Origin: Bacteroidales bacterium
GTDB lineage: Bacteria > Bacteroidota > Bacteroidia > Bacteroidales > UBA932
Length of the DNA stretch: 64,000 nucleotides
Direction: 5' to 3'
NCBI GenBank assembly: GCA_029098505.1
Contig: JAQXOE010000010.1
Location: 1-64,000 of the forward strand
In this document: in pieces, positions 822-47,342 of the stretch
How positions within the stretch are numbered: the stretch's first letter is position 1
Layout: every line of letters begins with the position of its first letter
Translations under genes and position numbers: made by a program
Notes under the pieces: model-generated
Told to the model about the DNA's origin: nothing
Database searches by the model: none
What the model saw: only the letters and a program-made list of their open reading frames with translations

Positions 822-824
822 CAT

Positions 825-935
825 GGGGGATAAGTGCCTGGTAGTCAGTGAATTAAGCATTTGTCTATGGTAAATTTTGCCCATAGACAATTAGCTAAAA
901 CATTGATACACAATAGGTTATCCCCCCCCCACGCG
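825..935 (+). repeat. interspersed palindromic element, copy 1
   Basis: GGGGGATAAGTGCCTGGTAGTCAG...TTGTCTATGG-N10-CCATAGACAA...TTGATACACAATAGGTTATC(C9)ACGC; matches 28651-28764 (reverse), 45556-45665, 47235-47342. Confidence 0.85.
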
Positions 936-15779: not shown

Positions 15780-15815
15780 ACCTGAAGCTTCTATATAGCG
15801 TCAAAAATTCTGTAT

Positions 15816-15868
15816 GGATTTTTTAGCATTTTTTAAAGTGGTTGCAAGCAGGCAAATCTTTCCACATT
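15816..15868 (-). ncRNA. SAM-II-like riboswitch aptamer upstream of metK
   Basis: Minus strand GTGG-AAA-GATTT-GCCTGC-TTGCAA-CCAC-TTTAAAAAAT-GCTAAAAA-ATCC: P1 plus GAUUU, UUGCAA, GCUAAAAA in SAM-II order. Confidence 0.78.
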
Positions 15869-15881
15869 CTCATTGTGACTG

Positions 15882-28650: not shown

Positions 28651-28764
28651 GTGGGGTTTAACTCATTGTGTATCAATGCTTTAAGCTTTTATCTATGGGC
28701 AAAAAATCCCATAGGTAAATGCCTAACTTGCTGTGTGTCAGACACTTATCCCCCCCCCACGCTC
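28651..28764 (-). repeat. interspersed palindromic element, copy 2 (inverted orientation)
   Basis: Reverse complement GCGTGGGGGGGGGATAAGTGTCTGACACACAGCAAGTTAGGC...CCTATGGG..CCCATAG...TTGATACACAATGAGTTAAACCCCAC. Confidence 0.85.
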
Positions 28765-28900: not shown

Positions 28901-28919
28901 TAGTATGTTTGAATTGCCG

Positions 28920-30833
28920 ATGAAAAACATTCGACTGCTGCTTATTTTGATACTCTCTGTTGTCTCTATGACATCAGTCCGTTCTTTCGCACAGAACAAT
29001 AGCCTGAAGATTGACGATTCCTGCTATCCTTCTTTCAGACAAGCGGATTCTCTTGTGGGTACTGACAGGTTTCCGGCTCTGATTCAAGAGTTTGAAAACA
29101 AGGCCCTTTCCGTTGAAGACAAAAAAGCCCAGGTGCTGGTGTATGTCCTTAAACTCAGGGATGCCAAGGCGACTGGACCAGATGAGAAGGTGGATAAGTA
29201 CTATGAAGAACTGAAGGAAGTAGCCAAGAGGCTGGATTATCTCCAGTACTATTTCTACGCCTATCATCTGAAGGCTGTTTATTATTACAACTGCGGCTTC
29301 CAGGCCAAGGCCTATAGAATCAGTGAGGAAATGCTGGATGAAGCAGTGGCTATGGACAATGAATATGGCTGCTGGTTCAGTGCCAGGAACATTGCTGACC
29401 TGTATATGGACAGCTACAAACTATCCAGGGCCAAGGAATACCTGCTTAAGGCGGTTGAGATTTATGAGAATACCGACAATAGGACCATCAAGGTCCAGGC
29501 TATGTCGAAGACCTATATGGACCTGGCTAGGTGTGACGAGCTCGGCACTCCTGATTTTGAGAAGTATTTGGACAAGGCTCTCGCTACAGCCAGGGTTTCT
29601 ACCGATACTCTGACCGTGTATTTCTACAGAGCTTGCAATTCAGTACTGAAAAAGAACTTCGCCGAATACAACAAATACAAGGAAATCTGTCTGAACAACA
29701 CCCAGCTGAAGAGAGTGCGCGCTCAAGCAAGTGTGGACTTTATGATGGCGGACGCAGCTGTAAGTGGCGATTGGGACTACTTCCTTGAGGCCTTGAAGGG
29801 CCTGAACCATCACGAGGATCTTTCATTCGTTACCCAACTGGCTGCAAAGTACGGTAATCTGGATGTGGTCACCGAGTGCTATCAGCGCCATATTATGCTG
29901 ATATACAACTCCCGTGACCACGAAGTCCAGCGTACTATCGAGCAATTGGAGCTCAAGGTGGAGAACGACAAGCTGAACCAGACCATCATACAGCAGAAGG
30001 GGAGGACCAACCGCATCCTGATGGTGACCTCATTGATACTCCTTCTCGCCGCCCTCTTCATCTCCGTAGCCTCCATCTATTACATCAGGAAATTGCGCAG
30101 GATGAGGAAGGAGGCGGAGTCTGCCAACAAGATGAAGACACGCTTCATCCAGAATATGAACCACGAGATCCGCACCCCTCTGAACGCGATTGTGGGCTTC
30201 ACCCAGTTGCTCATTGCCGATGACGAGCTCACTGAAGAGGAGAAGCAGCGCTACGGCCGCTATATCAGCAACAATTCATCCCTGCTGATGATGCTGATTG
30301 ACGACATACTCGACATTTCCGATGTGGACAACGGCCAGTACCGTCTGGCAATAGGCAACTGCAATGTGGAAGAAATCTGCAACAATGCGATGAACACCGT
30401 CGAGACCAGAGTCCCTGCTGGAGTGGAATACCGCTATGAGAAAGGAACACCGGAGGGTTTCGTCATTGAGACTGACGGACGCAGGGTGCAGCAGGTGCTG
30501 ATCAATTTCCTGACCAATTCCTGCAAGCATACGTGCTCCGGAGAGATAGTCCTCGCCTGCAGTCTGGAGGAAAATCTGGGCTCCATCACTTTCTCCGTAC
30601 GCGATACGGGTGGCGGTGTGCCGCTTGAATCTGCCGAAGAGATTTTCAACCGCTTTGCCAAGCTTGACGGTTTCAAGCAGGGCTCGGGCCTCGGCCTGAA
30701 CATCTGCCGCGTAATTGCCGGCAAACTGGGCGGCAGAGTGGACATTGACCGCAATTACGGCCGTTGTGCCGATCCGCAGGCGAAGGGAGCCAGGTTCGTA
30801 TTCATATTGCCATTGACGGCACCAACTGACTAG
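28920..30833 (+). CDS. sensor histidine kinase with TPR-like periplasmic region
   Basis: NHEIRTPLNAIVGFTQLL H-box, NFLTNSCKHT N-box, DTGGGVP, GSGLGLNICR; ORF 28905 trimmed to M at 28920. Confidence 0.88.
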   Translation: MKNIRLLLILILSVVSMTSVRSFAQNNSLKIDDSCYPSFRQADSLVGTDRFPALIQEFENKALSVEDKKAQVLVYVLKLRDAKATGPDEKVDKYYEELKEVAKRLDYLQYYFYAYHLKAVYYYNCGFQAKAYRISEEMLDEAVAMDNEYGCWFSARNIADLYMDSYKLSRAKEYLLKAVEIYENTDNRTIKVQAMSKTYMDLARCDELGTPDFEKYLDKALATARVSTDTLTVYFYRACNSVLKKNFAEYNKYKEICLNNTQLKRVRAQASVDFMMADAAVSGDWDYFLEALKGLNHHEDLSFVTQLAAKYGNLDVVTECYQRHIMLIYNSRDHEVQRTIEQLELKVENDKLNQTIIQQKGRTNRILMVTSLILLLAALFISVASIYYIRKLRRMRKEAESANKMKTRFIQNMNHEIRTPLNAIVGFTQLLIADDELTEEEKQRYGRYISNNSSLLMMLIDDILDISDVDNGQYRLAIGNCNVEEICNNAMNTVETRVPAGVEYRYEKGTPEGFVIETDGRRVQQVLINFLTNSCKHTCSGEIVLACSLEENLGSITFSVRDTGGGVPLESAEEIFNRFAKLDGFKQGSGLGLNICRVIAGKLGGRVDIDRNYGRCADPQAKGARFVFILPLTAPTD

Positions 30834-44390: not shown

Positions 44391-45389
44391 ATGGCAGAAA
44401 TTAAAGCAGCTGACGTAATGAAACTGCGCAAGATGACCAGCGCAGGTATGATGGATTGCAAGAAGGCCCTCACAGAGGCTGACGGCGACTTCAACAAGGC
44501 AATGGACATCATCCGCGAGAAGGGCAAGCTCGTTGCAGCCAAGAGAGCTGACCGCGAGACTTCAGAGGGCGCAGTTAAGGCTAGAATCAATGGCAATAAG
44601 GGTATCCTCGTTTGCCTTGGTTGCGAGACTGACTTCGTTTCAAGAAACGAGGCTTTCCAGGCTCTTGCAGAGGCTATCGCAGACGTAGCTATCGCTAACT
44701 TCCCGGCAGACATCGAGGCCCTCAAGGCTTGCAAGATGGCTGATGGCCAGACCGTAGCTGAGGCTGTTGAGGCTCAGACCGGTAAGACTGGTGAGAAGCA
44801 CGTTCTCGCTTCTTACTCATCTATCGAGGCTCCATACATCAAGGAGTATGTTCACAAGGTAAACGGAAAGCTCGGCGCTATCGTTGGATTCAACAAGGAG
44901 ATTGACGAGAACGTTGCCAAGGGTATGGCTATGCAGGTGGCTTCTATGAATCCTGTTGCTATTTCAGCAGAGGATTGCCCTGCAGAGGTCGTTGAGAACG
45001 AGCTCAAGGTCGCTACTGAAAAGACCAAGGAGGAACTCGTGAAGAAGGCTGTAGATGCAGCTCTCTCAAAGGCAGGCATCAACCCTGCACACGTTGACAG
45101 CGAGGCTCACATCGAGTCTAATACATCAAAGGGCTGGCTCACTCCTGAGCAGGCTGACCAGGCTCGTCAGATAATCAAGACTGTTGGCGAGGAGAAGGCA
45201 GCAAACCTTCCTATGCAGATGGTTGAGAATATCGCTAAGGGCCGTCTCCAGAAGTTCTTCAAAGAGCAGACTCTTCTCGAGCAGGAGTACACTATGTCTG
45301 ACGACAAGAAGAGCGTAAAGGCTGTTCTCGCCGCTGCTGACAAGGATGCTAAGATTGTAGCTTTCAAGAGATTCTCTCTTAACGACTAA
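44391..45389 (+). CDS. tsf: translation elongation factor Ts
   Basis: VMKLRKMTSAGMMDCKKALTEADGD. Confidence 0.97.
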   Translation: MAEIKAADVMKLRKMTSAGMMDCKKALTEADGDFNKAMDIIREKGKLVAAKRADRETSEGAVKARINGNKGILVCLGCETDFVSRNEAFQALAEAIADVAIANFPADIEALKACKMADGQTVAEAVEAQTGKTGEKHVLASYSSIEAPYIKEYVHKVNGKLGAIVGFNKEIDENVAKGMAMQVASMNPVAISAEDCPAEVVENELKVATEKTKEELVKKAVDAALSKAGINPAHVDSEAHIESNTSKGWLTPEQADQARQIIKTVGEEKAANLPMQMVENIAKGRLQKFFKEQTLLEQEYTMSDDKKSVKAVLAAADKDAKIVAFKRFSLND

Positions 45390-45555: not shown

Positions 45556-45665
45556 GCGTGGTGGATAAGTGACTGATACACAGCGAGTTAGGTGATTGCC
45601 TATGGTGAATTTTGACCATAGATAAATGCTTAAAGTGCTGATATACAATGGGTTGAGCCCCACGG
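45556..45665 (+). repeat. interspersed palindromic element, copy 3
   Basis: GCGTGGTGGATAAGTGACTGATACACAGCGAGTTAGG...CTATGGTgaattttgACCATAG...GCTGATATACAATGGGTTGAGCCCCACG. Confidence 0.85.
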
Positions 45666-45753
45666 CGAGGATGCTGCGGAGACAGCGCTGCAGAAACCGG
45701 CATCCCCCACGTCCAGCATCTTGGCTGCTGTGAGAGGAATTTGCACTCATCAG

Positions 45754-45830
45754 AAAGGAGGTAAGGAACTCACGGGAGCGAAGCTTGTCGCTGGATTTCG
45801 TGGAGCTCCAGCGAGTTCTTTGCCTCCTTT
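45754..45830. repeat. 18-bp inverted repeat with nested loop (long hairpin)
   Basis: AAAGGAGGTAAGGAACTC ... GAGTTCTTTGCCTCCTTT; the two mismatches would be G-U pairs in RNA. Confidence 0.75.
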
Positions 45831-45834
45831 CCCT

Positions 45835-47234: not shown

Positions 47235-47342
47235 GTGGGGGATAAATGCCTGATACTCAGCAAGATGAGCTATTGTCTATAGGCAAATTTGCCTATAGAC
47301 AATAGCTTAAGGTGTTGATACATAGTGAGTTGTCTCCCACGC
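47235..47342 (+). repeat. interspersed palindromic element, copy 4 (40-bp perfect central palindrome)
   Basis: GTGGGGGATAAATGCCTGATACTCAGCAAGATG AGCTATTGTCTATAGGCAAATTTGCCTATAGACAATAGCT TAAGGTGTTGATACATAGTGAGTTGTCTCCCACGC. Confidence 0.9.

Follow-up and report, generated by a model that had tools for sequence, protein, structure and literature searches.

What is the palindromic module of about 110 bp that recurs between genes of the 64-kb window (the whole stretch of DNA analyzed here), and what spread it? The original prediction described four copies, each with terminal inverted repeats, two boxes in direct orientation and a central palindrome, and offered four identities: a MITE, a REP/BIME-type element moved in trans, a recombinase site and a nucleoid-protein site. 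When the copies were aligned to their consensus, all four were present and each was exactly 106 bp long, with the ends first given being off by 0-8 bp. Copy 1 (823-928, minus strand), also found by the covariance model described below, is abutted by 24-bp tandem repeats beginning CCACGC (929-1048) and by 27-bp repeats (771-824). Copy 2 (28651-28756, plus strand) is intergenic and lies upstream of a histidine kinase gene (28905-30833), and copy 3 (45558-45663, minus strand) lies downstream of the EF-Ts gene (44391-45389). Copy 4 (47235-47340, minus strand), recovered by both consensus alignment and covariance model, is made of a closing-stem arm, GTGGGGGATAAA, with the outer foot GTGG (47235-47246), a side box TG-ATACT-CA (47247-47262), the central stem (47268-47307), a second side box TTG-ATACA-TAG (47313-47327) and the other closing-stem arm, on the TTGTCTCCCAC side, with the outer foot CCAC (47329-47340). 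Its central stem is a 40-bp perfect palindrome, as had been read from the sequence. Each side box could form a small hairpin, and both helices were weakly supported across species.

A genome-wide search dismissed the possibility, raised with the prediction itself, that there are no copies beyond these four. With copy 4 as blastn query, about 28 loci were found in the window's genome (G000; 2.15 Mb, 97.6% complete); a covariance model based on 29 copies found 46 complete copies and additional fragments. The length was 106 bp in 45 of the 46 complete copies and 107 bp in the remaining one. The copies are intergenic, as supposed: none of the 46 lay inside an ORF of at least 150 aa, where 65% of random positions fall. 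The gene gaps holding copies were tandem in 19 cases, convergent in 16 and divergent in 2, indicating avoidance of divergent gaps (2/37, p = 0.004). Direct repeats of at least 4 bp, sought as target duplications, flanked none of 45 copies. The two bases before the foot were CC in 17 of 45 copies (p = 7e-10), a pattern noticed post hoc among copies that are not independent. All six pairs of copies with more than 91% identity also shared similarity in at least one flank; in one of these pairs, in C66, the flank score was weak, yet the 3ʹ flanks begin alike.

The element is bounded by a closing stem, GTGGGG-GATAA/TTATC-CCCCAC, the left arm of which often reads GTGGGG-CTTAA. Inward of it come a TTG-n5-CAA box and the central stem, which reaches 19 bp at most, followed by another TTG-n5-CAA box, the loop of which runs in the same direction as that of the first. 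These are the two TGATAC boxes of the prediction, and their direct orientation is real. The consensus copy folded as a cloverleaf (-35.4 kcal/mol, z -10.5 against shuffled sequence), and single copies adopted three-hairpin or single-hairpin forms of similar energy on both strands. Paired positions covaried among the copies within G000. When 28 diverse elements from different species were aligned with plain MAFFT, RNAalifold recovered the closing and central stems de novo, with double changes in 22 of 28 pairs, and the genus-wide covariation of the full structure was 0.53 compared with 0.12-0.16 in slid controls. The sequences of the two stems differed between species while their pairing was kept. 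The compensatory changes first noticed in the window were therefore confirmed across copies, and strongly across species. The side boxes were weaker across species (66% and 53% of cells paired), so the active fold may in some cases be other than the cloverleaf. Mispairs were distributed unevenly between strands in the first 29 copies (102 vs 48); with 45 copies, the asymmetry was present in the side boxes alone (68 vs 23) and had gone from the stems, and we regard it as suggestive at most of which strand folds. No Rfam family matched over the elements, and the statement that this is not a named family held in Rfam and in the literature searched.

When the covariance model was run on 36 other species of the genus, 22 proved to carry related elements, 102-108 bp long; the 24 genomes from other families had none. 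The genus is probably Candidatus Cryptobacteroides, judging from the EF-Ts neighbours, which include MAGs of Candidatus Cryptobacteroides and Candidatus Cacconaster. An empty site matching the EF-Ts copy was sought in distant relatives, in which the gene order around it was not kept. A Y1_Tnp search of the genus had matches in 46 of 61 genomes, and several matches lay between pairs of elements. Among the best 30 loci of the protein family so obtained, here called RAYTs, 25 had an element within 1.5 kb, about 18 of them on both sides, and five had no clear element; control loci around EF-Ts gave one element match in 140 kb. Presence of the element and of this RAYT class was associated across the 36 species (18/4/4/10, p = 0.004), with four species carrying elements without this RAYT class. 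Protein similarity and element similarity were also correlated over 25 loci (Mantel r 0.30, p = 0.0001). The transposase that the original prediction proposed to look for was thus found in congeners, bracketed by the element, and not in the window's own genome.

The congener RAYTs are about 310 aa long. H51, H53, Y111, N114 and N115 were invariant in 17 aligned proteins (HxH and Y-x-x-N-N), which gives them the HUH motif and the single catalytic tyrosine, in a Y-x-x-x-N-P context, of RAYT/TnpA-REP proteins. All 17 matched Y1_Tnp, and all 17 matched the NCBIfam model REP_Tyr_transpos (NF047646) below its cut-off. The best PDB match of a predicted structure (pLDDT 90) was 4ER8, the E. coli RAYT with its REP hairpin (probability 1.00, about 140 columns), as expected of the TnpA-REP fold, followed by the TnpA proteins of ISDra2 and IS608. 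The C-terminal half was predicted to be helical and had no clear match; weak matches of this domain to 14-3-3 proteins (E about 0.03) were set aside. Among 296 genomes sampled across the order, one, from another genus of the same family, gave a partial match to this RAYT class. Several RAYT copies occur in the congener genome G006 (C2, C9, C19 and C31), some truncated or with a stop codon, as if decaying. A second Y1 protein family of about 290 aa was also seen in the genus (L094, L095 and L103), with no elements found beside it.

When compared with known systems, the element would work like a REPIN and is most similar to "double-foot" REPs, the repeats of RAYT subclass 2.4. Like the REPINs of Pseudomonas fluorescens and other RAYT-bearing genomes (Bertels and Rainey 2011, PMC3116915), it consists of an inverted pair of REP-like, if not canonical, units with a spacer that forms a hairpin in single-stranded DNA, has many intergenic copies in one genome, occurs in tandem arrays that include flanks, and is adjoined by a type-specific RAYT, the last in congeners and not in G000 or G368, its sister species. 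In classical REPs, a single hairpin carries GTAG or GTGG at its foot (GT[AG]G at a hairpin of 20-50 nt), whereas the GTGG feet here lie about 10 nt from a small box and pair with each other. Further, a small box takes the place of the GC-rich hairpin in each half, a long stem serves as the spacer, the length is fixed, and the copies number tens, not hundreds. Because there is no single hairpin with the foot at its base, and because no cognate RAYT was found in G000, we call the family REPIN-like and not a canonical REP. The "double-foot" REPs of TnpA-REP subclass 2.4, from Bacteroidetes and Cyanobacteria (Quentin 2018, PMC6006769), share the 5ʹ GT[AG]G and 3ʹ C[TC]AC ends and a RAYT with the motif YIxNNP. 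Unlike them, our element is multi-armed and 102-108 bp long. Its RAYT, with the helical C-terminal domain, is also longer (about 310 aa; their median is 194 aa) and has no conserved W-Q motif. Subclass 2.6 RAYTs of Bacteroidetes are alike in phylum and in having repeats of atypical structure adjoining the gene and further copies in the genome; judged by protein features alone, they are set apart by a median of 179 aa and the motif YIH[QN]NP (PMC6006769). TIRtrons/TIRYT (Di Nocera 2013, PMC3733652) likewise have Y1 transposase genes between terminal inverted repeats, some self-complementary and repeated in the genome, and differ in the consensus GGGGWSAS and in mostly HTH C-terminal domains.

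The window's own lineage was different from its congeners. No protein of the RAYT class was found in G000 at E up to 10, and two further searches, in which congeners matched and G006 served as positive control, found none in G000 or G368. Two weak Y1 matches in G000 lay in long frames unlike RAYTs, with no adjoining element, and were rejected. Among 400 genomes of the genus, G368 was the only other one with the same element sequence type. It had 22 strong copies, all 106 bp; copy 1 had an orthologue there with 1 of 106 positions different, and copies 2 and 3 were also orthologous. For 30 G000 copies the flanks could be bracketed in G368: 14 were present, 11 apparently missing and 5 unclear. 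At the inspected loci without a copy, larger blocks of roughly 190-400 bp were gone, not the element alone, and none was a precise 106-bp empty site; because the blocks exceed the element, they do not distinguish gain from loss. The proposed check for target duplications and empty sites therefore ended with neither. In 17 orthologous pairs we counted 189 substitutions and no indels, the zero being a figure to which the model search may contribute, as it disfavors copies with indels. Paired sites differed less than unpaired sites (9.3% vs 14.5%, p = 0.004). Compensatory changes numbered 3 of about 120 changed pairs, which is not evidence of strong current selection. Since no RAYT was found in either genome, the copies of G000 and G368 are probably a stranded relic population, inherited vertically, and we infer that the RAYT was lost in this lineage. 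The 14 copies present in both species and the flank similarity of near-identical copies agree with this. Flanks were swapped at the element between the two species (G000 C27:990, C45:4227 and C45:1060 against G368 C54:40013, L227), which suggests either a rearrangement through recombination between copies or an assembly error.

Taken together, we are fairly confident that the element is a REPIN-like, "double-foot" REP-dimer family, the partner of a genus-specific RAYT, and now probably a relic population in the window's lineage. Two inverted REP-like halves, each with the outer foot GTGG followed by a TTG-n5-CAA box, are joined by the palindromic spacer, and one strand can fold into a closed, cloverleaf-like structure. 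The partner in the genus would be the RAYT of about 310 aa, with an HUH/Y1 domain and the helical C-terminal domain, encoded by a gene bracketed by elements. Characterized RAYTs bind single-stranded REPs through a foot of the GTAG type and cut at a dinucleotide close by; for a Marinomonas RAYT, a GTGG foot is reported to shift the cut to CC (PMC8266576). By analogy, we infer that the RAYT of this genus would bind the folded single strand of the element, nick it at a dinucleotide adjoining the foot, and either copy the element or move it, with no target duplication; the enrichment of CC in the 5ʹ flank is what a GTGG guide predicts. In the window's lineage, copies would have been inherited vertically, duplicated together with their flanks and left to diverge slowly. 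The putative link of the window's copies to a RAYT is drawn from relatives, their own genome having yielded none. Of the four identities in the original prediction, the REP option is accordingly the one supported, by the RAYT linkage in relatives, the fold, the co-evolution and the lack of target duplications; it was largely correct, and movement in trans would follow from the analogy. Its further suggestion of selection or structure-dependent mobility fits the genus as a whole, but G000 yielded no RAYT and no sign of a recent solo transposition.

A MITE of a DDE insertion sequence would suit the terminal inverted repeats, the small size and the location between genes; the inverted repeat GTGGGGGATAA would then be the transposase end of an IS, whether lost or still present. 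No DDE transposase with such ends was noticed. Such MITEs have target duplications of fixed length, absent here at 4 bp or more in all 45 copies, and an IS end is not expected to be rewritten between species and still pair, as the termini do. In addition, the gene bracketed in relatives encodes a Y1 HUH protein. BrickBuilt (PMC4596501) and other MITEs of Porphyromonas were considered as known candidates and rejected; their ends differ, and the host is not Porphyromonas. We judge a MITE origin to be very improbable. The matching arms, such as the 40-bp perfect palindrome of copy 4, might instead be produced by template switching within quasi-palindromes and not by selection. Template switching is a known mutation mechanism for such sequences, and the scarcity of compensatory changes within the window's lineage is in line with it; it accounts for part of the covariation at most and leaves the conserved boxes, the fixed length and the RAYT linkage unexplained, so that we give it very little weight.

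Whatever their origin, the repeats could also have been recruited by the host and serve it as mRNA 3ʹ structures, as terminators or as nucleoid sites, with the length fixed for that use. The orthologues with no indels, the slower change in stems, the avoidance of divergent gaps and the persistence of copies with no RAYT all speak for host use. Nevertheless, the search model disfavors copies with indels, avoidance of divergent gaps is likewise to be expected of any insertion that harms promoters, orthologues show almost no compensatory changes, and 11 of 30 copies are missing in the sister species. Host recruitment thus appears unlikely to us, and the REPIN-like reading is retained.

Most work on RAYTs and REPINs has been done in Proteobacteria, and the recognition of the repeat by its enzyme is understood only in part. 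Dozens of related gut species with diverged enzyme-repeat pairs, and two species with repeats and no enzyme, offer a natural series for finding which bases the enzyme reads, how the pair co-evolves and what becomes of repeats after the transposase is lost. More tentatively, and as something less likely than not, we raise the possibility that a RAYT class peculiar to the genus, with the extra helical C-terminal domain, acts on a closed multi-armed substrate; in each species, changes in the foot and central stem of this substrate would have kept pace with those in the enzyme. In one lineage, the repeats would further have outlived the transposase at an exact 106 bp. If so, the length kept with no RAYT would mean that another factor moves the repeats or that the host uses them.

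Other repeats were seen beside the elements. A second interspersed inverted repeat, containing GGGAGCGAAGCTTG[TC]CCCAAGTTTTCGCGGAG, adjoins several of them, in the window at 45753-45831 and in the flanks of many copies, and recurs at 60-70 bp with about 90% identity in G000 and G368. Tandem repeats of 20-30 bp, with units starting with the element's own terminus GTGGGG, were above the 99% null in 12 of 46 flanks on the left and 5 of 45 on the right. Elsewhere in the window, a SAM-II riboswitch match (61.6 bits) was found at 15813-15871 on the minus strand.
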